Part shown: positions 16,582 to 33,423 of the stretch, in pieces
Numbering within the stretch: position 1 is the stretch's first letter
Layout of the letters: each line of letters starts with the position of its first letter
Source of the DNA: Candidatus Dadabacteria bacterium
GTDB taxonomy: Bacteria; Desulfobacterota_D; UBA1144; Nemesobacterales; Nemesobacteraceae
Reading direction: 5' to 3'
Assembly (NCBI GenBank): GCA_022822065.1
Contig: JAJECI010000008.1
Location: 181,254 to 245,253 of the forward strand
DNA length: 64,000 nt
Translations under genes and position numbers: made by a program
The notes under the pieces: model-generated
Told to the model about the DNA's origin: nothing
Database searches by the model: none
Seen by the model: the letters and a program-made list of their open reading frames with translations, nothing else

Positions 16582-18792
16582 ATGAAGAAAGGCAAGGACA
16601 CTCAAGGCGTATTCGTAGACGTGATGGCGATTTTTTTCTTCGCCCTCGGCGTATTCACCTTTATAAGCCTTCTGGTCTTCAGCAACCTTCTTGAAATCGA
16701 CGTAAAAGGCACAATGGGAGACGCGGGCCTTTACGTGTCGCACTCCCTTGGGAGTTCCTTCGGCACGCTTTCCTTCGTATTTCCCGTGCTGATGTTCTAC
16801 GCGTCATACGTGATTCTGAGAAAGCAGCCCGCCCGGAAGATATACTGGAAGCTTGGCTCCGCGATTATTTTCCTTCTCTCCTCGACCACCCTGCTCGGGC
16901 TCGTCTACGGAAAAAGTTCCCTTCTGGGCTACTCGCCGGCCGGGGGATGGCTGGGTCTTGCGATCTCTAGGGAATTCGCGCAGAACATCCTGGGAACCCT
17001 TGGAACATACATTGTCGCCATAATCGTCATATTCCTCTCCGTGATAGTAACGACGGAAACCAAGATCGCCAGCGTAGTGAAAATCATCCGCCTGCTCTTC
17101 TCAGGCGCTCTAAAAGGAGTTTCTGTGCCGATCGGCGCGCTGAGACGCGCCGCCGCACGAAGGGGCGCCCGAGGGAAAAAGAAGCAAGACGCCCCGAAGG
17201 CAACCCCCAGAGCGCCGAAAGCCCCGGCCGCGCCGAAGAATCAGGAACCCGGCGGAAAAGCCGAGACGGAACCGCAGATAGTCTTCACTCCTCCCGCACC
17301 CGACAAGAAAGACGAGCCGGCACCTCCCGCACCCGAGAGCAGATGGCTTGACTTCTCCCTCCCCGGAATTGACCTGCTTGACCCGAAAATCGGCACGTCC
17401 GTAGAGATAGACAAGGAAGCCATGTACCGGAAAGCCACCTTGATCGAGGAAAAGCTCGCGGACTTCGGAGTAACCGGAAAGGTCATGGAAATACGTCCCG
17501 GCCCGGTTATCACGATGTTCGAGTACAAGCCGGCTCCGGGAATAAAAATAAACAGGATATCGTCCCTTGAAGGCGATCTGGCGATGGGTCTTAAGGCGCT
17601 CAGCATAAGAATCATAGCCCCCATACCGGGAAAGGACGTGGTCGGAATAGAGGTGCCGAACGAAAGCAGGGAGACAGTGGTGCTGCGGGAACTTTTCGAG
17701 AGCAGCTCGTTTGTGGAGAAAAAATCGATGCTCACCATCGCGCTTGGAAAAGACATATCCGGAAAGCCGCGCTACATGGATCTTCAGACCGCCCCGCACC
17801 TTATGATCGCCGGAACGACCGGCTCGGGCAAAAGCGTGCTGCTGAACGCCGCGATCACAAGCCTGCTCTACAGGGCGACCCCCTATGAGCTCAAGATGAT
17901 AATGATAGACCCGAAGATGCTCGAGCTCTCCATATACGAAGACATTCCCCACCTGCTCCACCCGGTGGTAACCGAATCGAGAAAAGCCGTGGCCGCCCTC
18001 AAGTGGCTGGTCGGGGAAATGGATTCCAGATACAGCATGCTCTCCGAAGAAGGGGTAAGGGACATAGACAGCTACAACAGGAAGCTTGAAGCGCTTCAGA
18101 TCGAGGAAAAACAGCTCAGGTGGCTTCCCTACATAGTCGTTATCATAGACGAGCTTGCAGACCTGATGATGGTTTCCCCGAGCGACGTCAAGGACTCGAT
18201 AATAAGGCTCGCGCAGAAAGCCAGGGCGGCGGGAATCCATATAATAGTCTCCACCCAGCGCCCCTCGGCGGACGTGGTGGCGGGACTCATAAAGGCCAAC
18301 TTCCCGGCGCGCATATCCTTCCTCGTATCTTCAAAGGTGGATTCGAGAATCATACTTGACACAGGGGGAGCGGAGACCCTGCTCGGAAAGGGGGACATGC
18401 TTTTTCTCGCATCCGGGGGAAGCAATCTCCTGAGACTTCAGGGCGCGCTTATATCCGACGATGAAAGAAAACGGGTAACGGATTTCCTGAGATCCCAGGC
18501 AGAACCGGTCTACATAGAAGAAATAACCAAGGACGACTCGGACGATGAGAGCGCGGGAGTAAGCGAAGACGAAAAAGACGAACTTTACGAAACCGCGCTC
18601 GGGATAATAGCCGAAACGGGACAGGCATCCATCTCCATGATACAGAGAAGGCTCAAGATAGGATACAACCGCGCGGCCAGGATCGTCGAGACAATGGAAA
18701 AAGAAGGTCTCATAGGCCCTCAGGGAGCCGCCGGCAAACCGAGAGAAGTCTACGTGAACATGATTAAAGCGGACAGGGGAAACTCGGATTGA
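16582..18792 (+). CDS. ftsK: DNA translocase FtsK/SpoIIIE
   Basis: FtsK pumps chromosomal DNA through the division septum and coordinates dimer resolution. The 736-residue protein has four N-terminal membrane helices (about residues 10-165), a short Lys/Ala/Pro-rich linker (about 175-240), a RecA-like motor with Walker A GTTGSGKSVLLN (about 412) and VIIDELADLMM, the STQRPSADVV segment, and a C-terminal winged-helix gamma domain (about 665-730) for recognising orienting DNA sites. The short linker makes it SpoIIIE-sized. It overlaps lolA by 4 bases. Confidence 0.96.
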   Translation: MKKGKDTQGVFVDVMAIFFFALGVFTFISLLVFSNLLEIDVKGTMGDAGLYVSHSLGSSFGTLSFVFPVLMFYASYVILRKQPARKIYWKLGSAIIFLLSSTTLLGLVYGKSSLLGYSPAGGWLGLAISREFAQNILGTLGTYIVAIIVIFLSVIVTTETKIASVVKIIRLLFSGALKGVSVPIGALRRAAARRGARGKKKQDAPKATPRAPKAPAAPKNQEPGGKAETEPQIVFTPPAPDKKDEPAPPAPESRWLDFSLPGIDLLDPKIGTSVEIDKEAMYRKATLIEEKLADFGVTGKVMEIRPGPVITMFEYKPAPGIKINRISSLEGDLAMGLKALSIRIIAPIPGKDVVGIEVPNESRETVVLRELFESSSFVEKKSMLTIALGKDISGKPRYMDLQTAPHLMIAGTTGSGKSVLLNAAITSLLYRATPYELKMIMIDPKMLELSIYEDIPHLLHPVVTESRKAVAALKWLVGEMDSRYSMLSEEGVRDIDSYNRKLEALQIEEKQLRWLPYIVVIIDELADLMMVSPSDVKDSIIRLAQKARAAGIHIIVSTQRPSADVVAGLIKANFPARISFLVSSKVDSRIILDTGGAETLLGKGDMLFLASGGSNLLRLQGALISDDERKRVTDFLRSQAEPVYIEEITKDDSDDESAGVSEDEKDELYETALGIIAETGQASISMIQRRLKIGYNRAARIVETMEKEGLIGPQGAAGKPREVYVNMIKADRGNSD

Positions 18793-19448
18793 GGAAAATC
18801 GCGCTTGCGGCGGCGCTTTTTGCCACATCCCTTCTTTTTACCGCGCAGCCCGCGAGGACTCAGGACGCGGCCGCTGTTGTAAGCGGGATCCAGAAAAAAT
18901 ACGCTTCCATAACCGATCTTAAGTCGTCATTCACACAGGAAATCCGGACAAAGGACCGCGATGAAAAAATCTCTTCCTCGGGAAAGGTGTGGTTCAAGAA
19001 ACCGGCGATGATGAAATGGCAGTACGAAGAGCCGTGGAAAGACACGATAGTCTCTGACGGAAAAAAGGTCTGGCATTTTTACAGTCAGGAAAACCAGGTT
19101 GTCGAAACGGAATTCGACAGCGTCTGGGCAGGCTCCCTCGGCTCCTACACCGTTATTTCCATACTGGAGGATCTTGACCGTCTTTTCGATGTCCGCATAG
19201 GCGCCGGAAGCAAAGATGAACGGGGCAACATTCTCCTCAACTTAAGACAGAAAGAGCAGGAACAGGCAAAGCAGGTAACGATAGCAGTCGATCCCAAGAC
19301 CTATACGCTAAGGCGAATCATAATCGGCGATCTCTTCGGAAACACGACGATTATAGAACTGGGCGCGGCGGAAGTTAACCTGGGCACACCCGATTCGTTT
19401 TTCACGTTCAGAAAACCTGAGGGAACAGAAACAGTGACTTTTCCCTGA
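18789..19448 (+). CDS. lolA: Outer membrane lipoprotein carrier protein LolA
   Basis: LolA shuttles lipoproteins across the periplasm from the LolCDE exporter to the outer membrane. The 219-residue protein has a signal peptide ending about TAQPARTQ and the family pattern of an incomplete barrel: LKSSFTQEIRTKDRDEKISS, GKVWFKKPAMMKWQYEEP, SDGKKVWHFYSQENQV. The start is TTG at 18789, overlapping the ftsK stop (TTGA), which indicates coupled translation; ftsK-lolA linkage is common. It is the last backbone gene before the island. Confidence 0.92.
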   Translation: MRKIALAAALFATSLLFTAQPARTQDAAAVVSGIQKKYASITDLKSSFTQEIRTKDRDEKISSSGKVWFKKPAMMKWQYEEPWKDTIVSDGKKVWHFYSQENQVVETEFDSVWAGSLGSYTVISILEDLDRLFDVRIGAGSKDERGNILLNLRQKEQEQAKQVTIAVDPKTYTLRRIIIGDLFGNTTIIELGAAEVNLGTPDSFFTFRKPEGTETVTFP

Positions 19449-19566
19449 GGCGCTGAAATTCCTCGGCATTGCACCCGTCAACACGTCGAGCGAGCGCAGC
19501 CACCAAAACCCCGCTCTTTAGTTTCCACTGAATGTCTATTCTGCCCCCACACCCGCCGACAGATAC

Positions 19567-19595
19567 TTGCTGCAATAGGACGGACCGGTTATACT
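19567..19595 (+). promoter_or_regulatory. Predicted promoter of the PhyH-family gene
   Basis: TTGCTG (19567-19572) and TATACT (19590-19595) are 17 bases apart. The expected transcription start is about 19602, which is the GTG start codon itself, and there is no Shine-Dalgarno sequence. This would give a leaderless mRNA. The rest of the 153-base gap after lolA shows no other feature. Confidence 0.55.
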
Positions 19596-19601
19596 CAATA
19601 T

Positions 19602-20579
19602 GTGAGCCAACACCATCCCTTCGACAACGAGTTTCGCATCTCCGCTGAGCAGAAGATGAAGTTCCAGCGAGACGGATTCGTCAAGCTGGAGGGATTCCTG
19701 AACGCTGCCGTGGTCGAGACGCTGCTTGATCGTGTTGAAGTGGAGATGCGTCGGGATACCGTCGACACCCTCAAGGTGGATTCGCATTTCAATCGAGCGA
19801 AGTACGACTTCGAAAGCGACAAGACCGATGTCTTCGAACTGCTGGAGCAACCCTACTTCCAGGAGGCCCTTACCGGTCTGACGGAGCGCGATCTCTTTCT
19901 GACGTTCGAACTGTGCTTCGAGATCGAGAAGAACGTCAGCAAAGGATTCCCGTGGCATGTAGGCGTGCAGAGTTTCGGCTTCCAATTTGCGGAAGAGTTC
20001 GGATGCACGCTGTGGGCACCGCTCCATCCCGTGGACGTAGACGGGCAGCGGGGCGGAATGGCCTATGTGCCCCAGCATGTCGTATCGGGCGAACTCGTTT
20101 ATCAGGTCGAGTTGCCAATCGTCTCGACACTCAAGGCCAAGGAGCAGGCCGGAATCAGGACGAGCGTGGAAGAGTACTTCGCCATGCGCAACGGGATCCT
20201 CAATTCACCTGCCATGCTCGAGATACTCGAGAACCACCAGATCGAAGACAACTTTGAGCCTGGCGACGCGCTCCTGTTCAACAAGATGGTCCTCCATAAA
20301 AGCATCATGCTCGGGGAGGGGGACCTCCCTAGGCGGGCGGCCTATGTGATGCGATTTGTCGATGCGGGGTCGCACTACGACTTGGAGCGGGCGCAGAACC
20401 TCGAGTATCCCGTTAAACAGTACAGGTCTGGGTTCTTCGCATACAAGCCGCTCACGCGTCAGCATATCGAAATCGCAGAAGCCGGAGCGGCCAACGGCGA
20501 TGTTATCTCGAACTGCGCCTACTTCGACAACCGTGACCGCCGGATACTCCGCTGCCGGCAGTCTCCCCCTACCGGGTAG
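19602..20579 (+). CDS. PhyH-family Fe(II)/2-oxoglutarate enzyme with His-X-Gly motif (halogenase-like)
   Basis: The 325-residue protein has the phytanoyl-CoA dioxygenase pattern: FQRDGFVKLEGFL at the N-terminus, a FPWHVGVQSF segment (about residues 114-123), GCTLWAPLHPVDVDGQRGGM then YVPQHVVSG, and the distal iron ligand and 2-oxoglutarate arginine in PGDALLFNKMVLHKS...RRAAYVMRF. At the facial-triad position the family has His-X-Asp; here the codons CAT GTA GGC give His-Val-Gly. Loss of that Asp defines known Fe/2OG halogenases, where chloride takes its place, so a halogenase is plausible. It could also be a PhyH protein with altered chemistry or no activity. It lies upstream of the PKS on the same strand. 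Confidence 0.82.
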   Translation: MSQHHPFDNEFRISAEQKMKFQRDGFVKLEGFLNAAVVETLLDRVEVEMRRDTVDTLKVDSHFNRAKYDFESDKTDVFELLEQPYFQEALTGLTERDLFLTFELCFEIEKNVSKGFPWHVGVQSFGFQFAEEFGCTLWAPLHPVDVDGQRGGMAYVPQHVVSGELVYQVELPIVSTLKAKEQAGIRTSVEEYFAMRNGILNSPAMLEILENHQIEDNFEPGDALLFNKMVLHKSIMLGEGDLPRRAAYVMRFVDAGSHYDLERAQNLEYPVKQYRSGFFAYKPLTRQHIEIAEAGAANGDVISNCAYFDNRDRRILRCRQSPPTG

Positions 20580-20920
20580 GGTTCCCGGACGGATTTCGTC
20601 CCCAAAGTGTTGGAGGTGCGTCCTGCCCTGTGTTTAGTCAGGACACAGCTCCCTGTACCCCGAACCGTTTTCCGCTTTCAATTCTTCCAGCATTTCATCC
20701 CTGAGAGCCGCACCGTGAGATCATAATATCCCCGCCATATTGCCTTGGGACCGGAAGATCCGTCGTGCTTGCGATTGCGGCGCCTCTTCCACTTCCTTCC
20801 CTTTAAGATTGGACCATGATATCATTTTTTTCAGGGTTCCCATGCCGAAAATCGGTATTTATACAAACTCTTGAAAACCATACGCCTACTGGCGACAGGC
20901 CACGGCGGGAGAAGGACGCT
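20580..20920. other. Gap between the PhyH-family gene and the PKS; no intact gene
   Basis: The 341 bases hold no intact gene that I can support. The minus strand of the middle part looks like decayed coding sequence (separate entry). Just before the PKS start, GAGAAGGA lies 3-10 bases upstream of the ATG at 20921. An in-frame upstream ATG at 20818 would add 35 residues with no family resemblance and is not preferred. No convincing promoter or terminator was identified. Confidence 0.5.
20634..20803 (-). pseudogene. Possible remnant of the 3' end of an unidentified gene
   Basis: Read on the minus strand, one frame gives a basic stretch (KRRRNRKHDG, then IWRGYYDLTVRL), and after a frame change near 20700 a second frame continues RDEMLEELKAENGSGYRELC before TAA at 20634-20636. 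The composition looks protein-like, as if a C-terminal fragment had been broken by one frameshift. I do not recognise the parent family; a transposase or nuclease relic would be one guess. Chance is also possible. Confidence 0.28.
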
Positions 20921-23900
20921 ATGAGCAAAAAGCGGTCTGGTGATTATTCTCAAGCTACGGCGGCTGAGCCGGATATTCGGAATCGCTCGGGTTCACAATC
21001 CGAAGAGCCGATAGCAGTCGTCGGCATGGCGTGCCGATTCCCTGGCGCGAATGATGTCTCGGCGTTCTGGCGTCTTCTGGAAGCAGGTGAGAATGCGGTC
21101 AGCGAGGGCGTTCCGGGTTCCGGCGTTGGGCGTCTCGGCGAGCTTTTCCAAACCGCCACGCCTCAGGCAGAGGCATGTCGTTTCGTCGGTTTCATAGACG
21201 ATGTTGACCGGTTCGACGCCCCTTTTTTCCGCATTTCGCCGGTCGAGGCGCAGCACCTTGACCCGCAGCAGCGACTGATGCTGGAAACGAGCTGGCAGGC
21301 GCTCGAAAACGCGGGAATAGACCCTGACGGGCTGAAGAACAGCCGAACCGGAGTGTATGCCGGCATCAGCAATAACGACTACCGGGGGGTCATACTGGAA
21401 GCCAGCGACACTGCTGAGCCGGCTTCCAGCCTCTACACGGTCAGCGGCACTTCCTACAACACGGCCATCGGACGAGTCTCCTTCGCGCTTGGCTTACAAG
21501 GACCAGCGATTGCAGTGGACACTGCCTGCTCTTCATCACTCGTGGCCGTGCATCAGGCGGTGATCGGCTTGCAGCATGGCGAGGCCGACCTTGCGCTGGC
21601 GGGAGGGGTCAACTCCATCCTGTCGGGACGGCTCTTGGAACTGCGGGCTAATGCCGGAATGCTGGCGCCGGACGGACGCTGCAAGACTTTCGATGCCGCC
21701 GCCGATGGTTATGTGCGCGGCGAAGGCTGCGGGGTGCTGGTTCTTAAGCGACTGAGTGAGGCGGAAGCGGACGGCGACCGAATCTGGGGCATCATCCGCG
21801 GCTCCGCGGTGAACCAGGACGGTGCGAGCACAGGGCTTACCGTGCCGAACGCAAAGGCACAGGAACAAGTCATCAAGGCGGCATTGCTCAAGGCAGGCGT
21901 AACGCCGTCACAGGTGGACTATGTGGAAGCGCACGGCACGGGAACGCCGGTGGGCGACCCTATCGAGCTGCAGGCAGTGGCGGCCGCGTACTGCAAAGAC
22001 CGTCCGGCCAAACGACCGCTGCTCATTGGCTCAGTGAAGACGAACTTTGGACATCTGGAACCTGCGGCGGGCGCTGCCGGGATGATGAAGGTACTGCTGG
22101 CGATGAACCGGGGCATCATCCCGAAGCACCTGAATTTTCGCGATCCGACACCGGCAATCGATTGGCAGCAGCTTCCTTTGCGTGTCACTTCGACGGCAAC
22201 CGAGTGGCCTATGGTATCCGGCCGAGCTCCACTGGCTGGCGTGAGCGGTTTCGGCTGGTCCGGCACAAACGCACATATCGTGGTGGAGGGCTATGGCACG
22301 CCATCACGCGCCTCTAACGAATTGCACGACAGGAAATGGCCTGCGGGTTCTCCGAAGCATGTAGCCATCTCTTTGCCACAGGCAGCCTCGGAGGGGGCGG
22401 CGGAAGCGCCCGCTGCGCGTTCTACAAGGCTGCTGCCTCTCTCAGGCAAGACGGACAATGCCCTGCGAGAACTGGCGGAACGCTATCTTGCGTGGCTTGA
22501 CGAGAGTTCTATGGCTCTTGAACCCACAGACTCAGCCGCCTCCCCTTTCCTATCGGACATGGCGTGGACGGCAGGCGTCGGGCGCAGCCAATTCGCTCAC
22601 CGCGCGGGTATCGCTTTCAGGGACGCTGAGTCGCTGCGCGCCGGGTTGAAGACGGTTGCGGAGGGTGACAGGGGCGCAGAGGCAGAAGAGATAACGAAAG
22701 TGGCTTTCGTGTACACGGGGCAGGGCGGCCAGTGGATGGGCATGGGCAAGCTGCTTTACGAGCAGGAGCCGGTAGTGCGTGCCGTTCTCGACAGGTGCGA
22801 GCGGCTTATACTGGAGGAGCGAGGCACTTCGCTGCTGGACGTGATGTTCGGACGCGGCGAAGCAACGGGCGATTTGAATGATGCAACCTGGGCGCAGCCC
22901 GCCGTCTATAGCTTGGGGTGCGCTCTGACCGCATTGTGGCGCAGTATCGGAGTTTCTCCGAGCGTGGTAATCGGACACAGCCTCGGTGAATTCGCGGCGG
23001 CGCAGGCTGCCGGCGTGTTCGGGTTGGAAGAAGGTCTGAGGTTCGTTGCAAAACGCGGCACCCTGCTTTCGTCAGTTCCTGAGTTAGGCACAATGGCGGC
23101 GGTGTTCGCTTCAGAGGATGAAGTGGCGGCGGCGGTTGATGAGTACAATGCGTCATCCGACAGCCCGGACTTGAGCATCGCCGTTGACAACGGCATTCAC
23201 CAGGTCATTAGCGGCCCCACAGCGGCAGTTCAGGCGGTATCGGAGCGCTTCGAGGCAGAAGAGGTTACAGTAAGGCCGTTGAGCAGGAATCAGGCATTCC
23301 ACAGCGCTTTGGTGGAGCCTGCGCTGGATGCATTAGAAGAGGCGTATCAGGAGGATGTTGTGGCCTCGTCGCCGTCCGTGGCTCTGGTGAGCAATGTAAC
23401 GGGCAGGGTTGTGGGACCGGACGAGATTCTTGATGGCAAACACTGGCGGCGTCACGCGCGAGAGCCCGTGCAGTTTCGCAGAGGCATCGGAACTCTGGCG
23501 GAACTGGGCGTCGACTTGGTCATAGAAGTGGGTCCACACGCTGTGCTCGGCCCATTGGTATCCCTTGTCTGGTCCGGCGCGGCGGATGAGGCAAAAGACC
23601 CCATCGTCCTTGAGAGTATGCTGCGTCCATCAAAGGATGCCCTTCCGTCAGACCATGACGATAGCTTTATGGACGCCGTCGCGGGAGCATACGAGGCGGG
23701 GCTGACGCTTGCATTCGACGGACTGTTTGCGGGGGAGGAGCGGCGCAGGATTGAGCTGCCGGGCTATCCCTTCCAGCGTGCGCGGCACTGGGTCGATGCG
23801 CCAAGACGCAGACGCGCAGCCACTGGGCATCCCCTGCTGGGCACGAGGCATGAGTCGCCACGTGGCGAGGTGATGTTCGAAACGGAGATGTTTCCTTCCG

Positions 23901-26900
23901 ACCCGTCTTGGCTGAACGATCATCGCGTCTTCGGGCGGGTAGTAATGCCGGGCGCGGTGCATGGCGTTATGGCAGCGGCGGCGGCGCTATCCGAAGGAGC
24001 GCAATCGGTGGATGTGGAGGACATGCAGCTGCACAGCGCGCTGGTCTTTGCGGAGGAGAATGGCCCTGACGACACCGCGCAGGCCGGGCAAAAAATCCAG
24101 GCCGTGCTGAGCACATCCGAGAACGAAAACGCACGGCATATAGAGATATTCAGCAAGGGCGAGTCCGAAGAGGGTTGGACGCTTCATGCCGAGGGCGAGG
24201 TTTCGCTTGGAGGCGGGACGCGCGGGACTGCCAATCACGTCGATCTGGACGGATTGAAGTCGGGTATGGAGTCGCAGGATGTGGCGGCGTTCTATCGCGC
24301 GCGGGCGGAAGCTGGCATCCACCTCGGGCCATCGTTCCGCACGCTTCAGAGCCTGTGGACAGCGAATGGTGAGGCGATTGGTGAAGTGGCCCTGCCGGAA
24401 GCCGTTTCGAGCAGCGGCATCGACCTGCATCCGCTTCTGCTCGACGGCTGTTTCCAAGTCTTTTCGGCGGCGTACCATTCCACAGGAAGCGAAGACGAGA
24501 TAACCTACCTGCCCTTCGGATGGGAACGCCTGTGGCTTAAGCAGATGCTGCCGGAACGCCTCATCTGTCACGCCCGTTTGCGCAAGAACGTCCGCGACAA
24601 AGAGCGGGACGAGGAGCGAGACGAGACATCGGAAGTGCTGAGCGGCGACCTCCTGTTCTACACGCCGGACGGCACCGAGCTTGGCGGATTGAGCGGATAC
24701 ATTGTGAAGCGCGCCACTCGCGCGGCGTTGCTCTCGGAGACCGAAGGGCTGCACGACCTCTTGTACGAAATCGTCTGGCGCGACCGCGCCCTTGCGAATG
24801 GGATGCTCTCGGCCGACTTCCTTACGAGTCCGACAGGCGTTGCCGACCGCTCGATTCCGTTCACCGAGTATCTCGCACGTGAAGGCGTAGAAGCCGACGA
24901 GCGCGTTAATTTACTGAACGACCTTGAGCGATTGTCGTGGCTCTATGCGCTCATAGCACTGGAGCAGCTGGGGTGGGAACGCAAGGTCGGTGAATTCGTC
25001 GAGCCGGAAGCCGTGCGGGAAAGACTGGATGTCCCGCCAAAACACCAGCGTGTGTTCCGCCGTATGTTCGAACTGCTCGTCGAAGCGAAGGTGGTGGAAG
25101 AAGCGGACGATGGATTTGTCGTTAAGGTCGGGCAGGACGACCCGCTGCCAGATCATATGCCGCACAATCCCGATGAGTTTGCAGACCAGATGAATGCGCA
25201 ATACTGGCACGGGACGAATGAAATTGGACTATTCAGGCGGTGCGCTGCCGCTTTCGCTGATGCGCTCGTTGGTCAAGCGGATCCGCTGACGCTGCTGTTC
25301 GGCAGCGGAGAGCCAACCGCCGGCGACCTGTACTTGAAATCGCCGGCTGGACGTATGGCGAACCAAATGCTGGGAGATACGGTTGCGGCACTCCTAGACA
25401 CACTGCCGGAAGACCGAAGGCTGCGCGTACTGGAGGTCGGCGCCGGTACGGGAGCGGGGACGGCGGCGGTGATGCCTGAGTTGCCGGCCGGTCGCTATGA
25501 TTACACATATACTGACATATCGGCCGGCTTCTTCTCAGAAGCAGAAAAGCGTTTTGGCGGAAGCGACGAGTCAATCGAATACCGTGCCCTGGATATCGAA
25601 AAGGACCCTATCGAGCAGGGTTTTGATCTTCATGGCTATGACTTGGTCATTGCCTCCAATGTGCTGCACGGCACACGCTACCTGAACGAAACCCTGACTC
25701 ACTGCCGCATGCTGCTTGCGCCATCGGGCCAGTTGGTGGCGCTTGAGAACCTTTGTGGTCTTAGCTGGCAGGACATGACTTTTGGGCAGTTGGACGGCTG
25801 GTGGCGTTTTGACGACGACTACCGTACGCACCACGCAATGGTCGGCCCCGCGGTCTGGCGGCAGGCGCTCGTCGATTCGGGCTTCGGTGAAGTGGAGGTC
25901 TTGGGAGGAAGTAAATCTGACACGACCAGCACACCGGAGAAAGGTGTGATACTGGCGCAAGGACCTGCGGAGGTAAAGGAGACGGCAGGAGTATGGGTTC
26001 TCGCGGGTGATCAGTGCGGTGTGGCAGAGGAGCTGGCAGAGGAACTGGCAGCACGCAACCAGACCGTCGTGCTGGTGAGCGACCGCGCGCAGTCAGACGG
26101 GGAATCATCAGAAAAAGATCGGGCAGTGATCAAGGCGACCGTGGAGATGCAGAACCGCGAATCGTGGCGCTCGTTACTCGAAGGTCTGCCTGCGGAGGTA
26201 CCGCTCAGCGGCATTGTACATCTCGCGGCGCTTGACGGTCGCGGCGCGGACGCCACCACCGAAGAGTTGGGCGAAGATATAAGACAGACAGGCGGAAGCG
26301 CCCTGGCGCTCGTGCAGGGTATGGGCGATGCCGATGCTGCGCCCGCAAAGGGCATGTGGTTTATCACGCGCGGCGGGCAGGTTCTGGAGCGGGAGCATCT
26401 CGGACAACTGACCGGCTCACTGCTATGGGGCTTTGGCAAGGTAGCGGCACTGGAAGCGCCCCATCTGCAACCGAGGATGATCGACCTTGACCCCGAGAAT
26501 ACCGTGCCGCTGTCTGACCTCGTCAATGAGCTGATGTACCCGGACTCTGAGACTCACATCGCCTATCGTCTGGGATTCCGTCGGGCTGCGCGTCTCGTTC
26601 GTGCCAGTGCTGATACGGAACAGTTGACCCTGCCGGAAGGGTCGCGCTGGTTCCTGGAGCCGGACGCGAGCGGCGCACTCGAAGAACTGCAAGTGCTGGA
26701 CTCGCCGGAGCGTTCACTCGAACCGAGAGAAGTTCGCGTGGCTGTGGAGGCTTCCGGATTGAACTTCTGGGATGTGTTCCGTTCTCTTGGCCTTATCGAT
26801 GAGGGTGTCCTGGGTGGCGAGACGTGCGGACATGTCCTTGAAGTCGGTTCCGATGTAACGAGTGTGTCCGTGGGTGACCGCGTAGTTGCGCTGGCATTCG

Positions 26901-29900
26901 GTACTTTCGGTTCAGATGCGGTCATGCGGGAGGAGATGGTTGCGCTTGCGCCGCCGGGTGTCCCGATTTCGCAGCTTGCCACTATACCGACCGTGTTCGT
27001 TTGTGCCGCATTGTCGTACGATCTGGCAAAATTGAAAGCGGGCGAGCGGGTGCTTATTCACGCAGGCGCCGGCGGCGTAGGATCGGCAGCTATCCAGCTT
27101 GCGCACGCCGCGGGCGCAGAAGTGTTCGCCACGGCCAGCGTACCGAAACAGGCGTATGTGCGCTCGCTAGATGTGAAGCATGTCTTCGACAGCAGACAGA
27201 CCCGGTTCGGGCAGGAAATCCTCGAAGCCACCGGCGGCGAAGGTGTTCATGTGGTGCTGAACAGCCTGACTGGCGAGGGCTTTATCGAGGCGAGCCTGTC
27301 CTGCCTCGCGCATGGCGGCAGATTCATCGAGTTGGCCGGAGTGAACATCTACACCGAGGAAGAAATGGCCGCCGCGCGCCCGGATGTGGACTACCACATC
27401 TATGAACAGGATACCCTGAAAGAGCAAAACCCGGAGCAGCCGGGAGCGGCTCTTAAGACCGTGATGAAACAGTTTGAGGCAGGAGAACTGACGCCGCTTG
27501 TCCACAGCAGGTGGTCTATGGCGGAAACGGTCTCCGCAATGCAGTTCATGCGCGCGGCGCGGCACATCGGCAAGATCGTTCTTACAAATTCGCCGCTGGA
27601 GACGGGACGGCTGCGGGGGGACAGAACCTACCTAGTGACCGGCGGACTGGGCGGTATTGGCTGCGCTCTGGCCGATTGGCTGGCAGACCGGGGCGCGGGC
27701 GCAGTCGTGCTGAACGGCCGACGCGACCCCGACCCCGAGGCCAGAGAAGCTATCGACACGTTACGCGGACGTGGCGCGACGGTGCAGGTGGAAATTGCGG
27801 ATGTGACGGACACGGCAGCGGTGGACGCTATGCTGGAGCGCATCGATGCGACTCTCCCGCCTCTCGCTGGTGTTATACACAGCGTGGGAGTGCTGTCGGA
27901 CGCCGTACTGGCAAACCAGAGTTGGGACAGTTTCCAGCAGGTGCTCTGGCCAAAGATGCTTGGCGCATGGCATCTGCACCGCGCGACCATGCACAGGGAT
28001 TTGGACATGTTCGTCCTGTTCTCCAGTGTGGCGGGCGTGCTGGGCAACGCAGGTCAGGCAAACCATGCAGCGGCTAACGCATTTCTGGATCAACTCGCAG
28101 CCCATCGGCGCGCGTTCGGACTGCCCGGGCAGACGATCGCGTGGGGAGCCTGGTCGGGGCTTGGCGAAGCAGAGGAGCAGCGAGAGCGCATCGAAAGCCA
28201 GTTGGAGGCGACGGGCACGGGCTGGATTACACCGCAGCAGGGACTAAGAGCGCTAGAAACGCTGGTGCGGCAGGATGCTCCGGCCGGTATGGTCGCGTCA
28301 GTGGACTGGCCGACATTCGCGACGGCTCACGATGATCTTCCACCATTCCTAGAGGAGCTGTCATCCGCAAACGATATGGACGAAACATCGGAATCTTCGG
28401 AAGACGTGTTGTCGCAGTTGCGCGTCTCGTCGCAAACCGAGTCGGAGAGTATTCTGGTGTCGTTCCTGCAAAAGGAACTCCAGGCGGTGATGAGGCTGTC
28501 TAGCCCACCTTCAACCTCGATCGGCTTCTTCGATCTGGGAATGGACTCATTGATGGCAGTAGAACTGAGAAACCGGCTTAACCGCGCATTCGCGGGCGAG
28601 TACGTCGTCTCCAACACGGCTGTCTTCGATTACCCCGACATCTCGACCTTAGCCCGCTATCTGGTGGACGAACTCGGTCAGCTGAGCGAGGACGGTGAGA
28701 CGGCTCCAACGCCCGAGACAGCCGCACCCACACCGCGCCCGCCCGTCGCTACTGAGGACGACGACATAGCGATAGTCGGCATGGCGTGCCGCTTCCCAGG
28801 CGCGAAAAACCTTTCGGAATACTGGCACCTAATGGAATCGGGCATTGACGCAGTGACCGACGGACGCCAGGCTGGCGACTCGCGAAGGGACGCCGCCGAA
28901 AACCCAAACTCCGAGAACACCTCCCACCTGCGCGGTGCGTTTGTTGAGGGGATCGAGTGGTTTGACTCACGCTTCTTCCACATTGCGCCGATAGAAGCGC
29001 GGATGATGGACCCTCAACAGAGAATGATGTTGGAAACGAGTTGGGAAGCTGTCGAAGACGCCGGAATCGCTCCCGACAGTCTACGGGGCAGCCGCACCGG
29101 AGTGTATGCCGGAGTCACCGCCAGCGAATACCGACATCTAATTGAAGCCAGCGGTAAGTATAGCGGTCAACTCGGCACAGCGGCCAGCATCACCGTCGGG
29201 AGGGTCGCGTCGGCACTGGGTCTGGAGGGCCCGGCAATGGCCATCGATATGGCCTGCGCTTCTGCATTGGCTGCGGTGCATCAAGCCGTTGCTGGGTTAC
29301 TGCGGGGCGAGCTGGACCTGGCTCTCGCCGGAGGCGCGCATGCGGCGCTGTCACGCGACGTTTCCAGATTCATGCTGGATGTGGGGATGCTCTCGCCGAG
29401 TGGACAGTCCTGCCCCTTCGATGCGTCTGCAGACGGCCATGTGCGCGGCGAGGGTTGCGGAATACTCGTTTTGAAACGGCTGAGCGAGGCGGAGGTTGAC
29501 GGCGACCGAATATGGGGCGTCATCAAGGGTTCTGCCATCAACCAGAACTGGACAAGTGCGGGATTGACCGTCCCGAACGGCCCGGCGCAGGAGCGTGTTA
29601 TGGAGGCGGCGCTTGTTCAGGCGGGCCTCACCGGGACGGACATTGACTATCTCGAAGCGCACGCGGCAGGTTCCCAATTGGGCGACGCGATTGAGGTACA
29701 CGCAGTCGGCTCGGTGTACGGAAGAGGGCGCACTGATGACCGCCCGCTGCTGATGGGCACTGTAAAGTCAAACATCGGACATCTGGAGACGGCGGCGGGC
29801 GTTGCCGGTCTGATAAAGGCTGTGCTGGCGATGAAGCAAGGTGTCATTCCGGGACATCTGCACTTCAAGGAACCGAATCCACAAATCGACTGGGACCGAC

Positions 29901-31309
29901 TGCCCGTGCAGGTGACTTCTGAAAAAACCGACTGGCCGCTCCATCCTGACAGGCCGCCACGCGCGGCAGTAAGCGCTTTCAGCATGTCAGGCGCAAACGC
30001 GCATATGTTGGTGGAAGGCTACGGAATCGTGACAGAAGATGACAGCGCAAGTGCTGGAGTGCAGTCGCTTAGGGGTGCCGCGCTGCAGGTGCCCGTTTCT
30101 CTGCCGGAGCCAGTTGCTAGTCTGCCGCTGGCCACGGACGGACTAACGGAGCGCACGGTGCGGTTCCTGCCGCTATCAGGCAAGTCGGAGGGCGCCCTGC
30201 GGGACATGGCAGGACAGTACCTGTCGTGGCTCGACGAGCACATTGCCGAGTCATCCCCTGAAGCACCTGCACTTGCTGACATAGCGTGGACGGCGAGTGT
30301 CGGACGCAGCCATTTTGATCATCGCGCCGCCGTGGTGTTTGGAGATACGCAATCTCTGCGTGCAAGACTGACGAAACTTGCGGAGACCGGCGCCACGCCT
30401 GGTAAGCCAGATCCGCAGCCTGTAACAAGGGTGGCATTCGTGTACACGGGCGAGGGCAGCCAGTGGGTTGGTATGGGCCAAGCTCTGTATGATAGCGAGC
30501 CGGTCGTGCGCGCTGTTCTGGACCACTGTGACACCGTGGTGCGCGCAGAGAGAGGAGCATCACTGCTCGATGTGATGTTCGGGCGCGCCGAAGCAGCGGG
30601 CAATTTGAATGATGCGGCCTGGGCGCAGCCGGCTCTCTACGCATTGGAGTGCGCGCTGACGGCGCTTTGGGCAAGCGTTGGAATTCGCCCGAACGTCGCA
30701 CTGGGGCACGGCACCGGCGAGGTCACCGCGGCGTGGGCTGCGGGAGTTTTCACCTTAGAGGACGGATTGCGCTTTGCCTTGACTCGCGGCACGCTGATGG
30801 CGGCGCTGCCGGGAGTGGACCCGAATCAATCTCTTAAAGGTCTGGAAGCGGCATTTGCAGAAAGTACGGCCTCGCCTCCATCCCTGACTCTGGTGAGCGG
30901 CGTTACGGGGCTGGTTATGGATTCGGACAGTCCACTCGACGGGGCTTACTGGCGTACGCAGGCGTGCGAGACTGCGGCGTTTGGCGCAGGTATCTCCACT
31001 CTTGCTAACTTGGGAGTGGATGCAGTGGTAGAGATTGGTCCCGGCGCGGTACTGGGGCCGCAGGTGGGTCTAGAGTGGCCGGACTCGTCGGACGGAGAGG
31101 AAGCTACCGCCTCGCCACTCGTGCTTGCGAGCCTGATACGACCATCCGACGAAGATTCAGAGAAGAGCAGCACTGGTTTTGTGGAGGCGGTTGCAGGGGC
31201 ATACGAGGCGGGACTGGCGCTTTCCTTTGAGGGCATGTTCGCCGGGGAGTCGCGCCGCCGCATCTCGCTGCCGAGCTATCCGTTCCAGCGCAGGCGTCAC
31301 TGGGTGTAA
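20921..31309 (+). CDS. Iterative-type reducing type I polyketide/fatty acid synthase, KS-AT-DH-cMT-psiKR-ER-KR-ACP-KS-AT(degenerate)
   Basis: The 3462-residue enzyme (start ATG 20921, good Shine-Dalgarno) has an animal-FAS-like order. KS1 (about 30-460; Cys203 in DTACSSSL, EAHGTGT, KTNFGHLE). AT1 (595-885; Ser687 in GHSLGE; QAFH suggests malonyl-CoA). DH (969-1265; His1001 in HxxxGxxxxP, Asp1175). C-methyltransferase (about 1340-1660; VLEVGAGTGAGT). Structural KR half (1690-1895). ER (1908-2225; HAGAGGVG). KR (2232-2480; TGGLGGIG, but His2382 replaces the catalytic Tyr). ACP (Ser2543 in GMDSLMAVEL). KS2 (2615-3037; Cys2779 in a variant DMACASAL). AT2 (3172-3382) has Gly3264 instead of Ser and lacks about 75 residues including the His region. 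It ends at the post-AT linker with no second ACP or thioesterase. The likely product is a reduced, methyl-branched acyl chain. Confidence 0.93.
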   Translation: MSKKRSGDYSQATAAEPDIRNRSGSQSEEPIAVVGMACRFPGANDVSAFWRLLEAGENAVSEGVPGSGVGRLGELFQTATPQAEACRFVGFIDDVDRFDAPFFRISPVEAQHLDPQQRLMLETSWQALENAGIDPDGLKNSRTGVYAGISNNDYRGVILEASDTAEPASSLYTVSGTSYNTAIGRVSFALGLQGPAIAVDTACSSSLVAVHQAVIGLQHGEADLALAGGVNSILSGRLLELRANAGMLAPDGRCKTFDAAADGYVRGEGCGVLVLKRLSEAEADGDRIWGIIRGSAVNQDGASTGLTVPNAKAQEQVIKAALLKAGVTPSQVDYVEAHGTGTPVGDPIELQAVAAAYCKDRPAKRPLLIGSVKTNFGHLEPAAGAAGMMKVLLAMNRGIIPKHLNFRDPTPAIDWQQLPLRVTSTATEWPMVSGRAPLAGVSGFGWSGTNAHIVVEGYGTPSRASNELHDRKWPAGSPKHVAISLPQAASEGAAEAPAARSTRLLPLSGKTDNALRELAERYLAWLDESSMALEPTDSAASPFLSDMAWTAGVGRSQFAHRAGIAFRDAESLRAGLKTVAEGDRGAEAEEITKVAFVYTGQGGQWMGMGKLLYEQEPVVRAVLDRCERLILEERGTSLLDVMFGRGEATGDLNDATWAQPAVYSLGCALTALWRSIGVSPSVVIGHSLGEFAAAQAAGVFGLEEGLRFVAKRGTLLSSVPELGTMAAVFASEDEVAAAVDEYNASSDSPDLSIAVDNGIHQVISGPTAAVQAVSERFEAEEVTVRPLSRNQAFHSALVEPALDALEEAYQEDVVASSPSVALVSNVTGRVVGPDEILDGKHWRRHAREPVQFRRGIGTLAELGVDLVIEVGPHAVLGPLVSLVWSGAADEAKDPIVLESMLRPSKDALPSDHDDSFMDAVAGAYEAGLTLAFDGLFAGEERRRIELPGYPFQRARHWVDAPRRRRAATGHPLLGTRHESPRGEVMFETEMFPSDPSWLNDHRVFGRVVMPGAVHGVMAAAAALSEGAQSVDVEDMQLHSALVFAEENGPDDTAQAGQKIQAVLSTSENENARHIEIFSKGESEEGWTLHAEGEVSLGGGTRGTANHVDLDGLKSGMESQDVAAFYRARAEAGIHLGPSFRTLQSLWTANGEAIGEVALPEAVSSSGIDLHPLLLDGCFQVFSAAYHSTGSEDEITYLPFGWERLWLKQMLPERLICHARLRKNVRDKERDEERDETSEVLSGDLLFYTPDGTELGGLSGYIVKRATRAALLSETEGLHDLLYEIVWRDRALANGMLSADFLTSPTGVADRSIPFTEYLAREGVEADERVNLLNDLERLSWLYALIALEQLGWERKVGEFVEPEAVRERLDVPPKHQRVFRRMFELLVEAKVVEEADDGFVVKVGQDDPLPDHMPHNPDEFADQMNAQYWHGTNEIGLFRRCAAAFADALVGQADPLTLLFGSGEPTAGDLYLKSPAGRMANQMLGDTVAALLDTLPEDRRLRVLEVGAGTGAGTAAVMPELPAGRYDYTYTDISAGFFSEAEKRFGGSDESIEYRALDIEKDPIEQGFDLHGYDLVIASNVLHGTRYLNETLTHCRMLLAPSGQLVALENLCGLSWQDMTFGQLDGWWRFDDDYRTHHAMVGPAVWRQALVDSGFGEVEVLGGSKSDTTSTPEKGVILAQGPAEVKETAGVWVLAGDQCGVAEELAEELAARNQTVVLVSDRAQSDGESSEKDRAVIKATVEMQNRESWRSLLEGLPAEVPLSGIVHLAALDGRGADATTEELGEDIRQTGGSALALVQGMGDADAAPAKGMWFITRGGQVLEREHLGQLTGSLLWGFGKVAALEAPHLQPRMIDLDPENTVPLSDLVNELMYPDSETHIAYRLGFRRAARLVRASADTEQLTLPEGSRWFLEPDASGALEELQVLDSPERSLEPREVRVAVEASGLNFWDVFRSLGLIDEGVLGGETCGHVLEVGSDVTSVSVGDRVVALAFGTFGSDAVMREEMVALAPPGVPISQLATIPTVFVCAALSYDLAKLKAGERVLIHAGAGGVGSAAIQLAHAAGAEVFATASVPKQAYVRSLDVKHVFDSRQTRFGQEILEATGGEGVHVVLNSLTGEGFIEASLSCLAHGGRFIELAGVNIYTEEEMAAARPDVDYHIYEQDTLKEQNPEQPGAALKTVMKQFEAGELTPLVHSRWSMAETVSAMQFMRAARHIGKIVLTNSPLETGRLRGDRTYLVTGGLGGIGCALADWLADRGAGAVVLNGRRDPDPEAREAIDTLRGRGATVQVEIADVTDTAAVDAMLERIDATLPPLAGVIHSVGVLSDAVLANQSWDSFQQVLWPKMLGAWHLHRATMHRDLDMFVLFSSVAGVLGNAGQANHAAANAFLDQLAAHRRAFGLPGQTIAWGAWSGLGEAEEQRERIESQLEATGTGWITPQQGLRALETLVRQDAPAGMVASVDWPTFATAHDDLPPFLEELSSANDMDETSESSEDVLSQLRVSSQTESESILVSFLQKELQAVMRLSSPPSTSIGFFDLGMDSLMAVELRNRLNRAFAGEYVVSNTAVFDYPDISTLARYLVDELGQLSEDGETAPTPETAAPTPRPPVATEDDDIAIVGMACRFPGAKNLSEYWHLMESGIDAVTDGRQAGDSRRDAAENPNSENTSHLRGAFVEGIEWFDSRFFHIAPIEARMMDPQQRMMLETSWEAVEDAGIAPDSLRGSRTGVYAGVTASEYRHLIEASGKYSGQLGTAASITVGRVASALGLEGPAMAIDMACASALAAVHQAVAGLLRGELDLALAGGAHAALSRDVSRFMLDVGMLSPSGQSCPFDASADGHVRGEGCGILVLKRLSEAEVDGDRIWGVIKGSAINQNWTSAGLTVPNGPAQERVMEAALVQAGLTGTDIDYLEAHAAGSQLGDAIEVHAVGSVYGRGRTDDRPLLMGTVKSNIGHLETAAGVAGLIKAVLAMKQGVIPGHLHFKEPNPQIDWDRLPVQVTSEKTDWPLHPDRPPRAAVSAFSMSGANAHMLVEGYGIVTEDDSASAGVQSLRGAALQVPVSLPEPVASLPLATDGLTERTVRFLPLSGKSEGALRDMAGQYLSWLDEHIAESSPEAPALADIAWTASVGRSHFDHRAAVVFGDTQSLRARLTKLAETGATPGKPDPQPVTRVAFVYTGEGSQWVGMGQALYDSEPVVRAVLDHCDTVVRAERGASLLDVMFGRAEAAGNLNDAAWAQPALYALECALTALWASVGIRPNVALGHGTGEVTAAWAAGVFTLEDGLRFALTRGTLMAALPGVDPNQSLKGLEAAFAESTASPPSLTLVSGVTGLVMDSDSPLDGAYWRTQACETAAFGAGISTLANLGVDAVVEIGPGAVLGPQVGLEWPDSSDGEEATASPLVLASLIRPSDEDSEKSSTGFVEAVAGAYEAGLALSFEGMFAGESRRRISLPSYPFQRRRHWV
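28760..31309 (+). repeat. Partial tandem duplication of the KS-AT part of the synthase
   Basis: KS2-AT2 matches KS1-AT1 of the same gene, including non-family linker stretches: LLDVMFGR...NLNDA.WAQPA in both ATs and AVAGAYEAGL followed by an ER.RRI.LP.YPFQR-type end in both linkers. The similarity extends to DNA (for example around 22840 versus 30570). This points to duplication within this gene family followed by decay of AT2, rather than capture of an unrelated module. Confidence 0.75.
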
Positions 31310-31397: not shown

Positions 31398-31469
31398 CCT
31401 TATGAATCAAGTGACTGGTTATAGAAGTAATTACCTTATTTAAAATTCCTAAAAGGAGGAGTGTATATT

Positions 31470-31715
31470 ATGGCATCAGTTGAAGATCGATTGAGACAAC
31501 TTGCGGACGAAAACTTGGAGGTAGACGGACAGCCGATAGGCAAGTTGCTGGATCCGGATAAGAGCATTGCTGACCTGGGTGTTTCCTCTGTGGACGCAGT
31601 GGCATTCGCCAAAGTACTCGAACAGGAGTTCAATGTCTCCCTCCTTCCCGAAAAGATCGGGGAGATATCCTCTATTGGAGACTTGATAGCGTACCTAGAG
31701 GCCAACGCTTCTTAA
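31470..31715 (+). CDS. Discrete acyl carrier protein
   Basis: This 81-residue protein has the ACP four-helix pattern with the phosphopantetheine-attachment serine in IADLGVSSVDAVAF (second Ser of the pair), followed by LEQEFNVSLLPEKIGEISSIGDLI. AAAGGAGGAG 8-9 bases upstream selects ATG 31470 over the in-frame GTG at 31461. The KS2-AT2 end of the neighbouring synthase has no ACP of its own, so this protein may serve KS2, or act as acceptor of the finished chain. It differs from the embedded ACP (GMDSL) and is not a recent copy of it. The PPTase follows after 32 bases. Confidence 0.88.
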   Translation: MASVEDRLRQLADENLEVDGQPIGKLLDPDKSIADLGVSSVDAVAFAKVLEQEFNVSLLPEKIGEISSIGDLIAYLEANAS

Positions 31716-31747: not shown

Positions 31748-32521
31748 ATGTCCGCTTCTGCTGCAAGGTGCTGGTGGAGTTCTTTCCGTAAAGCCGGTTC
31801 CGCTACCGTCACGCATGTGGATCTGACGCCTAACGCCAGCTGTGAGGCATCATCTTTGTTATGGCTGAGCGAGGAAGAGCGGGTGCGCTGTCGCCAATAT
31901 CCGCTCCCGGGTCCTCGTCGGAGGTTCGCTTTGTGTCGCGCCGCGCTTCGGGCTATCCTCTGTCGCCAACTCGGTTGCGGCAATGAACGCCTAAGCTTCG
32001 GCTCATCCCACTATGGAAAACTGTTCGCGCTAGTAGACGATGCACCGGCAGCCATCAGCTTCAACCTCAGTCACAGTGGAGAGCATGGTTTGATAGCTCT
32101 TGTTCCCCATGGACGGCTGGGCGTGGATGTGGAAGAGCGCGTCTCCAGAAAGGATTTCGACGAACTGAGCGAAGCCGTGTTTGGTCCTCATGAACAGTCC
32201 GCCCTTGCCCGCGTACGTGGACGCGACAGGGTTCAGCTGTTCTTCAGACTCTGGACCATCAAGGAAGCCCTGATCAAGGCTCTTGGCCTAGGTTTCACCT
32301 TTGATGTGTCTCAGTTTGAAGTGCCGCCAGCCTTGCATCAGGGGAGAATGGGCATGTTTCGCTTCCCGCAGCTGCCGGAAGTACACTGGCGCGTCGAATA
32401 CATAGGCAACGAGAGTTTTTCAGCCGCCATCGCACACGAGCTTCTCCCGTTCCAATTAAGCGACCAGTCATCACGGCGGCAAAACGGTGACGCGCCAGAA
32501 AAACGAGGAGTCTGCCAGTGA
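31748..32521 (+). CDS. Sfp-type 4'-phosphopantetheinyl transferase
   Basis: It transfers phosphopantetheine from coenzyme A to carrier-protein serines, and is probably the activator of the synthase ACP and the discrete ACP. The 257-residue protein shows the Sfp signatures: FNLSHSGEHGLIALV, LGVDVEERVSRKDF (Mg-binding GVDVE) and FFRLWTIKEALIKALGLGF (WxxKEA). A basic RFALCRAALRAIL segment precedes them, as in other Sfp enzymes. The start ATG 31748 is plausible but has a weak ribosome site. The stop overlaps the next gene's GTG (GTGA), so the two are translationally coupled. Confidence 0.92.
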   Translation: MSASAARCWWSSFRKAGSATVTHVDLTPNASCEASSLLWLSEEERVRCRQYPLPGPRRRFALCRAALRAILCRQLGCGNERLSFGSSHYGKLFALVDDAPAAISFNLSHSGEHGLIALVPHGRLGVDVEERVSRKDFDELSEAVFGPHEQSALARVRGRDRVQLFFRLWTIKEALIKALGLGFTFDVSQFEVPPALHQGRMGMFRFPQLPEVHWRVEYIGNESFSAAIAHELLPFQLSDQSSRRQNGDAPEKRGVCQ

Positions 32522-33423
32522 GTTCAGAAATCGTATGGGAGCTGCCTGAGCCGCTTTCCACTCACGATGTCCGCATGGACGACGGCACCATCATTACGCT
32601 GCGCCAACATGGAAACCCGTCGGGACCGCGACTCGTCATGAGCCACGGCAACGGTCTCGCAGTCGACCTGTATTATCCGTTCTGGTCGCTCCTGACCGAC
32701 GACTTCGACCTGATAATCTACGATCTCAGAAACCATGGCTGGAATCCGGCAGGCAATCTTCAAAACCATAGTCTTCCAACATTGGTTCAGGACAACGACA
32801 CCATTCTTGAGGCTATCGACCGCCACTATGGAACAAAGCCCAGAATAGGCGTGTTCCACTCAGTTTCAGCTCTGGCGACTCTGCTATCACCCAAAAAGGG
32901 CGGCGACTTTGCAGCGCGGGTTCTGTTCGACCCGCCTCTCTGCAAGCCTGGCCGGAGCTTTAAGGATTATGAAGATATCGCAAAACGTATGGCTAAAAGG
33001 ATCCGTCAAAGCACTAATCGATTTGAAACCACGCAACAACTTGCGGATATTCTTCCTTACATTCCAGACTTCCAGCACGTGGTGCCGGGAGTATTTGATC
33101 TTTTTGCAAGAACAACCCTGCGTGAGCGTGCGGACGGAGAGGGGTATGAACTTTGCTGTCCTCCTGAGTACCAGGCGCAGATGATAGAGTACGCCAGCGC
33201 CTTTGCCGTACTCGTGGACTTTCAGTCGCTGCTGTGCCCGACAAAGGTCATCGGGGCTGACCCGACCTTGCCATACTCATACCTGCCGACACTCGACCTG
33301 AGTGATATGTCCACCGTAAATTACGACTTCCTGCCCGATGCTACGCACTTTCTTCTTCTGGAAAAGCCACAGGAATGCGTAAAGTCCATGCTTGAGTTCA
33401 TCGAGCCGATTATCACTGCGTAA
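32518..33423 (+). CDS. Alpha/beta-fold hydrolase, possible offloading thioesterase
   Basis: The 301-residue protein has the oxyanion-hole segment MSHGNGLAVDLYYPFW, a nucleophile elbow GVFHSVSALATLL (Ser in H-S-x-S rather than the usual GxSxG), and a late histidine in LPDATHFLLLEKP, so a Ser-His-acid triad is likely. The DLRNHGWNP strand is typical of the fold. The start is GTG 32518, overlapping the PPTase stop, with GAGGAG upstream. The synthase has no thioesterase domain, so release of the product is a reasonable role, but the sequence does not prove it. Confidence 0.82.
   Translation: MSSEIVWELPEPLSTHDVRMDDGTIITLRQHGNPSGPRLVMSHGNGLAVDLYYPFWSLLTDDFDLIIYDLRNHGWNPAGNLQNHSLPTLVQDNDTILEAIDRHYGTKPRIGVFHSVSALATLLSPKKGGDFAARVLFDPPLCKPGRSFKDYEDIAKRMAKRIRQSTNRFETTQQLADILPYIPDFQHVVPGVFDLFARTTLRERADGEGYELCCPPEYQAQMIEYASAFAVLVDFQSLLCPTKVIGADPTLPYSYLPTLDLSDMSTVNYDFLPDATHFLLLEKPQECVKSMLEFIEPIITA

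Follow-up and report, generated by a model that had tools for sequence, protein, structure and literature searches.

A BtnX-type Fe(II)/2-oxoglutarate halogenase gene beside a type I polyketide synthase in a marine Dadabacterium

Genes and features of the locus

The window analyzed here is a stretch of 64,000 nucleotides from Candidatus Dadabacteria bacterium (contig JAJECI010000008.1), a little-known marine Dadabacterium whose genome assembly measures 1.63 Mb and is 96.5% complete. On its forward strand, positions 19602 to 20579 encode a 325-residue protein with a GTG start, which we describe as a BtnX-type Fe(II)/2-oxoglutarate (2OG) halogenase from its match in the Protein Data Bank (PDB) and from its sole Pfam match, to PhyH (PF05721; 28.4 bits, cut-off 22); an NCBIfam search returned no model for it. 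An earlier note, made from the letters of the DNA, had pointed to an altered iron-binding motif, a distal histidine, and a 2OG-binding arginine, and all three are present. The iron-binding histidine is followed by valine and by a glycine in place of the usual Asp/Glu ligand (His119-Val120-Gly121, CAT GTA GGC, 19956 to 19964), within GFPWHVGVQSFG (residues 115-126). The distal iron-binding histidine, His232, lies in the segment VLHKS (20295 to 20297), and Arg245 (20334 to 20336), presumed from its role in the superfamily to bind 2OG, stands 13 residues past it, which matches the superfamily spacing for this arginine. An AlphaFold model of the protein, computed from a four-sequence alignment, reached a pLDDT of 37 and was discarded, and nothing below makes use of it.

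The gene is followed after 236 bp by a type I polyketide synthase (PKS) in the same orientation, in agreement with the PKS linkage described in the earlier note. As called, the PKS is 3497 residues long (20816 to 31309), although its start is more likely the methionine at 20921, as in a second genome of the genus, G001; its domains are ordered KS-AT-DH-MT-ER-KR-ACP and then KS-AT. Also on the forward strand lie a free-standing acyl carrier protein of 84 residues (31461 to 31715; PF00550), a 4'-phosphopantetheinyl transferase (31748 to 32521; PF01648), and an alpha/beta hydrolase (32518 to 33423; PF12697) that may be the releasing enzyme. The left flank, conserved across the genus, is lolA (18789 to 19448, forward strand), and the conserved right flank is a xanthine/uracil-type permease (33467 to 35215, reverse strand). 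Eight of 14 genomes from the genus have a PKS cluster 3' of lolA, and in those whose retrieved sequence reaches past the cluster the permease stands at its other end; in one genome, G006, the permease directly follows lolA, giving the site without the cluster. A promoter consensus search bearing on co-transcription of halogenase and PKS found none; the only terminator-like site lies on the opposite strand and is no more than expected by chance.

The second acyltransferase of the PKS reads GHGTGE instead of GHSxGE (30704 to 30724; PKS residues 3297-3303) and so lacks its catalytic serine; all seven PKSs of the genus that are complete share the GHG form. The second ketosynthase keeps its cysteine and has an altered first histidine motif. 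In two halogenase-free genomes of the genus, an ion-channel-like ORF and a 447-residue ORF occupy the interval between lolA and the PKS (L051:4094-6354 and L053:10986-13246), which makes this gap a spot of gene turnover.

Halogenase chemistry and closest known enzymes

Whether the glycine is fixed among homologues was a point that the earlier note had left to an alignment. Among 17 aligned homologues, ranging from nearly identical sequences down to ~24% identity, glycine occupies the motif column in every one, the distal histidine and the arginine are kept in all 17, and His-X-Asp is absent throughout, which rules out Gly121 as a chance substitution or sequencing error. A sequence search of the whole PDB gave as best match 9pv1/9q04 (E=4.4e-133), deposited under the name 'Biotin halogenase BtnX', to which the window protein is ~65% identical over its full length; the halogenase of CurA came next (3nnf, E=4.7e-28), and nothing further was convincing. 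A profile built from eight family members brought in nothing more than weak hits on EctD, MysH, and CytC3 (E=0.0074 for CytC3). The protein thus has the PhyH-type double-stranded beta-helix homology of the Fe(II)/2OG halogenases (PF05721; relatives 9pv1 and 3nnf), and its two best solved relatives are both halogenases of this type. The match to BtnX strengthens the halogenase chemistry proposed in the earlier note and at the same time undoes its suggestion of a new halogenase lineage, because an enzyme of solved structure shares ~65% identity with the window protein from end to end. The window enzyme instead joins a recently solved kind of halogenase, in a new phylum and a new setting.

The closest known enzymes differ from it as follows. 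BtnX (9pv1, 9q04; Dshi_3684 / WP_012187119.1) has the HVG motif, the distal histidine, and the arginine in common with it, but comes from another phylum, and the two differ by a short insertion near the C-terminus; the window enzyme adjoins a PKS and has no biotin importer beside it. The halogenase of CurA is a domain within a PKS and modifies an acyl group carried by an ACP. This domain (PDB 3nnf and others) shares the PWHVGV motif, the fold family, and the PKS context, whereas the window ORF is free-standing and only ~30% identical to it; the position of the CurA domain in our tree is a long-branch effect and was not used. Halogenases of the SyrB2/CytC3 type are likewise PhyH-like, with a small residue replacing the carboxylate ligand, but they are barely detected by the family profile, and the window cluster has no NRPS carrier, a Pfam search having found no NRPS genes in it. 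A further set of uncharacterized proteins with an HIG motif, linked to LysE genes on plasmids of Pantoea, Klebsiella, and Acinetobacter, shares the catalytic residues at 38-42% identity but forms a separate subfamily by its diagnostic positions (see below), and its substrates are likely to differ.

We regard halogenase chemistry as almost certain for the window enzyme. As judged from sequence, it very probably chlorinates or brominates a small molecule, and biotin is the likeliest candidate. By the mechanism that these residues suggest, iron would be coordinated by His119 and His232, and Gly121, standing in place of the third (carboxylate) ligand, would free a site for chloride or bromide on the metal. 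Oxygen and 2OG would then yield a halo-oxo-iron(IV) species that abstracts a hydrogen from a C-H bond, and the halogen would rebound onto the substrate carbon. We infer the activity, the halogen, the substrate, and the biological role of the enzyme. Glycine at this column is not sufficient by itself as proof of halogenation, and the protein could in practice be a hydroxylase or inactive, a reading with which the dN/dS of ~0.40 for the Dadabacterial pair might also agree. Against this, the gene is intact in two lineages (the copy in the second genome is 84% identical), all catalytic residues are kept, and both close solved relatives are halogenases, so that we consider the absence of halogenation very improbable. 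By comparison, dN/dS is 0.16-0.25 for Dadabacterial ftsK, lolA, the transferase, and PKS module 1, and ~0.05 for a pair of roseobacter BtnX genes; the window gene is constrained, yet is evolving faster than its neighbors.

A block of halogenase and PKS module 1

A search of 58 Dadabacteria genomes found the halogenase in the window genome and G001 and in none of the remaining 56; among named records, the closest that carries the gene is Candidatus Dadabacteria bacterium APA_bin_8, at 84% identity. The same two genomes are set apart by their PKS. Between the window and G001 the PKS is ~86% identical throughout, whereas identity to the five remaining complete PKSs of the genus is ~60% up to about residue 2580 and ~85% beyond it, so that a distinct module 1 is confined to the two halogenase-bearing genomes among the eight with a PKS (of 14). 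The block exclusive to these two genomes spans ~9 kb (19449 to 28553, forward strand), with its 5' edge in the interval that separates lolA from the halogenase gene and its 3' edge within the first acyl carrier protein domain (ACP1), just after GMDSLM. Recent insertion of the halogenase alone next to an unchanged PKS is ruled out, since module 1 differs too.

The two carriers of the block are not sister lineages. In a species tree of the genus built on two genes that flank the block (ftsK and lolA), G001 groups with G008, G011, G012, and G013, apart from the window genome (support 97/97), whereas the module 1 tree joins the window and G001 in a deep clade of their own (100/100). For this reason the halogenase and module 1 appear to have been exchanged together as a block, and they behave as a ~9 kb unit that was either exchanged between lineages or retained as an old alternative. 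This co-segregation across the genus strengthens the link between halogenase and PKS that the earlier note had drawn from their adjacency. It supports joint function but does not prove it, because it is a single association, in two lineages, of genes that are adjacent on the DNA.

Candidate substrates and the origin of BtnX

The BtnX chain is identical over 307 residues (100%) to a protein of pDSHI01, the 'killer plasmid' of Dinoroseobacter shibae (89186-90118; WP_012187119.1), whose gene is followed by those for BioY, an ABC ATPase (EcfA), and EcfT, together a biotin importer. The same order recurs on plasmids of Pseudosulfitobacter and Roseovarius and in Alexandriicola, the sequence retrieved for Roseovarius reaching as far as the ATPase gene. 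Operon order, length (310 aa), and insertion site (89405) identify the D. shibae plasmid gene as Dshi_3684 of a published study, in which it is named a 2OG-Fe(II) oxygenase superfamily protein (PMC8831719). In that work, transposon mutants of Dshi_3684, Dshi_3685 (BioY), and Dshi_3686 (the ATPase) kept the helpful phase of the interaction with the dinoflagellate Prorocentrum minimum and lost the ability to kill it; the alga needs biotin, and biotin depletion was the authors' proposal for the killing (PMC8831719). We infer from sequence identity that this killer gene encodes the protein of the BtnX structure. The killing may then stem from halogenated biotin, instead of or besides biotin depletion, and this can now be tested. 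A literature search on BtnX, 'biotin halogenase', and 'chlorobiotin' found no paper, although one may exist beyond the literature searched.

The match to BtnX, the importer operon beside btnX, and the loss of killing in the Dshi_3684, BioY, and ATPase mutants make biotin or a close analogue our best guess for what the window enzyme halogenates. We compared 94 diagnostic positions, each invariant within roseobacter BtnX and within the LysE-linked subfamily but occupied by a different residue in the two. Both Dadabacterial proteins have the BtnX state at 53 of these, the other state at 7, and neither or a mixed state at 34; moreover, residues 97-128, before and across the motif, are nearly identical to BtnX, whereas the LysE-linked proteins diverge there. 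The host carries bioB, bioA, and bioF contiguously and bioD elsewhere, and biotin should therefore be present; since BioY was not found in the window genome or in five other genomes of the genus, any biotin used would be home-made. The most probable substrate would be biotin from the cell's own synthesis, or else a close analogue, dethiobiotin for example, and the halogenated vitamin could be released to neighbors as an antivitamin or a signal. We favor this assignment by a modest degree, for several observations weigh against it. The operon context of BtnX (BioY/EcfA/EcfT), a feature that is not strictly defining, is replaced at the window gene by the PKS cluster, and no biotin gene is adjacent; the conserved neighbor is a PKS whose module 1 travels with the halogenase; an identity of 65% does not guarantee the same substrate; the function of BtnX itself is taken from its PDB molecule name; and the purifying selection is laxer in the Dadabacterial pair than in the roseobacter pair.

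The main competitor is the product of the PKS, halogenated as an acyl group on ACP1 or on the free-standing carrier protein, or as a released methyl-branched acid, by a BtnX scaffold re-purposed in Dadabacteria. The gene order speaks for it, with the halogenase just upstream of the PKS on the same strand in both genomes that have it, as do the co-segregation with module 1 in two non-sister lineages up to a block edge inside ACP1 and the precedent of the CurA enzyme, the second-best solved relative, which works on a carrier-bound group. The far greater identity to BtnX than to the CurA domain and the nearly identical surroundings of the motif count against it, and the linkage itself could be explained solely by physical neighborhood, one exchange having carried both genes. 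On this evidence a carrier-bound or released PKS product appears less likely than biotin as the substrate, and in absolute terms rather unlikely. The BtnX-like sequence and the co-exchange of module 1 could be reconciled if halogenated biotin or a related compound were joined to, or extended by, a PKS-made chain. The cluster shows no ligase, adenylation domain, or loading module, and to our knowledge nothing of the kind is known, so that such a joint pathway is improbable. We place at the same low level the halogenation of a free small molecule other than biotin or the PKS product: the wider family probably uses several substrates, because relatives at 36-44% identity adjoin LysE (amino-acid-type) exporters or an acetyltransferase/TauD gene, but the window protein clusters with BtnX and not with these relatives. 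Taken more broadly, integration of a BtnX-type halogenase in a PKS pathway, with the halogenase-module 1 cassette leading to a halogenated lipid or polyketide or to a biotin conjugate, is a tentative minority reading. It is very unusual for a vitamin to be halogenated, and an orthologue of BtnX in an unrelated phylum, in a host that makes biotin and next to a PKS, opens the question of how general biotin halogenation is: it could be a general tool of marine symbionts, or the scaffold could change its substrate with its neighbors.

The BtnX type is rare: it occurs in 2 of 397 genomes sampled from the roseobacter family, in 2 of 58 Dadabacteria genomes, and in five plasmid records at 61-63% identity. 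Distant relatives (36-44%) are found on plasmids of Pantoea, Klebsiella, Acinetobacter, and Streptomyces, with other neighbor genes, and a scan of IMG/VR for distant relatives found none. On Klebsiella variicola plasmid NZ_CP044049.1 (L058:2858-5598), a 39%-identical HIG relative lies between a LysE exporter and a heme-oxygenase-like protein that weakly resembles BesC (NF042919, E=1.4e-6, far under the cut-off); by analogy with BesD/BesC, the locus seems a candidate for the synthesis of a chlorinated or alkenyl amino acid. Plasmids of Pantoea agglomerans (L060:2791-10598) and Klebsiella pneumoniae (L061:1541-9442) share a conserved cluster in which a 24-26%-identical DWHIG protein accompanies an opine-type dehydrogenase, a DapH-like acyltransferase, an SDR, an ATP-grasp protein, and MFS and LysE transporters; this is an uncharacterized small-molecule pathway that includes a candidate halogenase. 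In a plasmid of Streptomyces sp. NBC_01207 (L011:10016-13734), a 37%-identical HVG relative is immediately followed by a protein in which an acetyltransferase and TauD are fused, and by an ArgE-like gene. The relative on Acinetobacter soli pGFJ2 (L009:10001-10900) is probably broken, since the region of the match is interrupted by two in-frame stops and the gene is annotated as shortened. A 29%-identical match (H18) lies at 992-1726 of MT838212.1, an unannotated, phage-labelled record of 6.3 kb from human feces.
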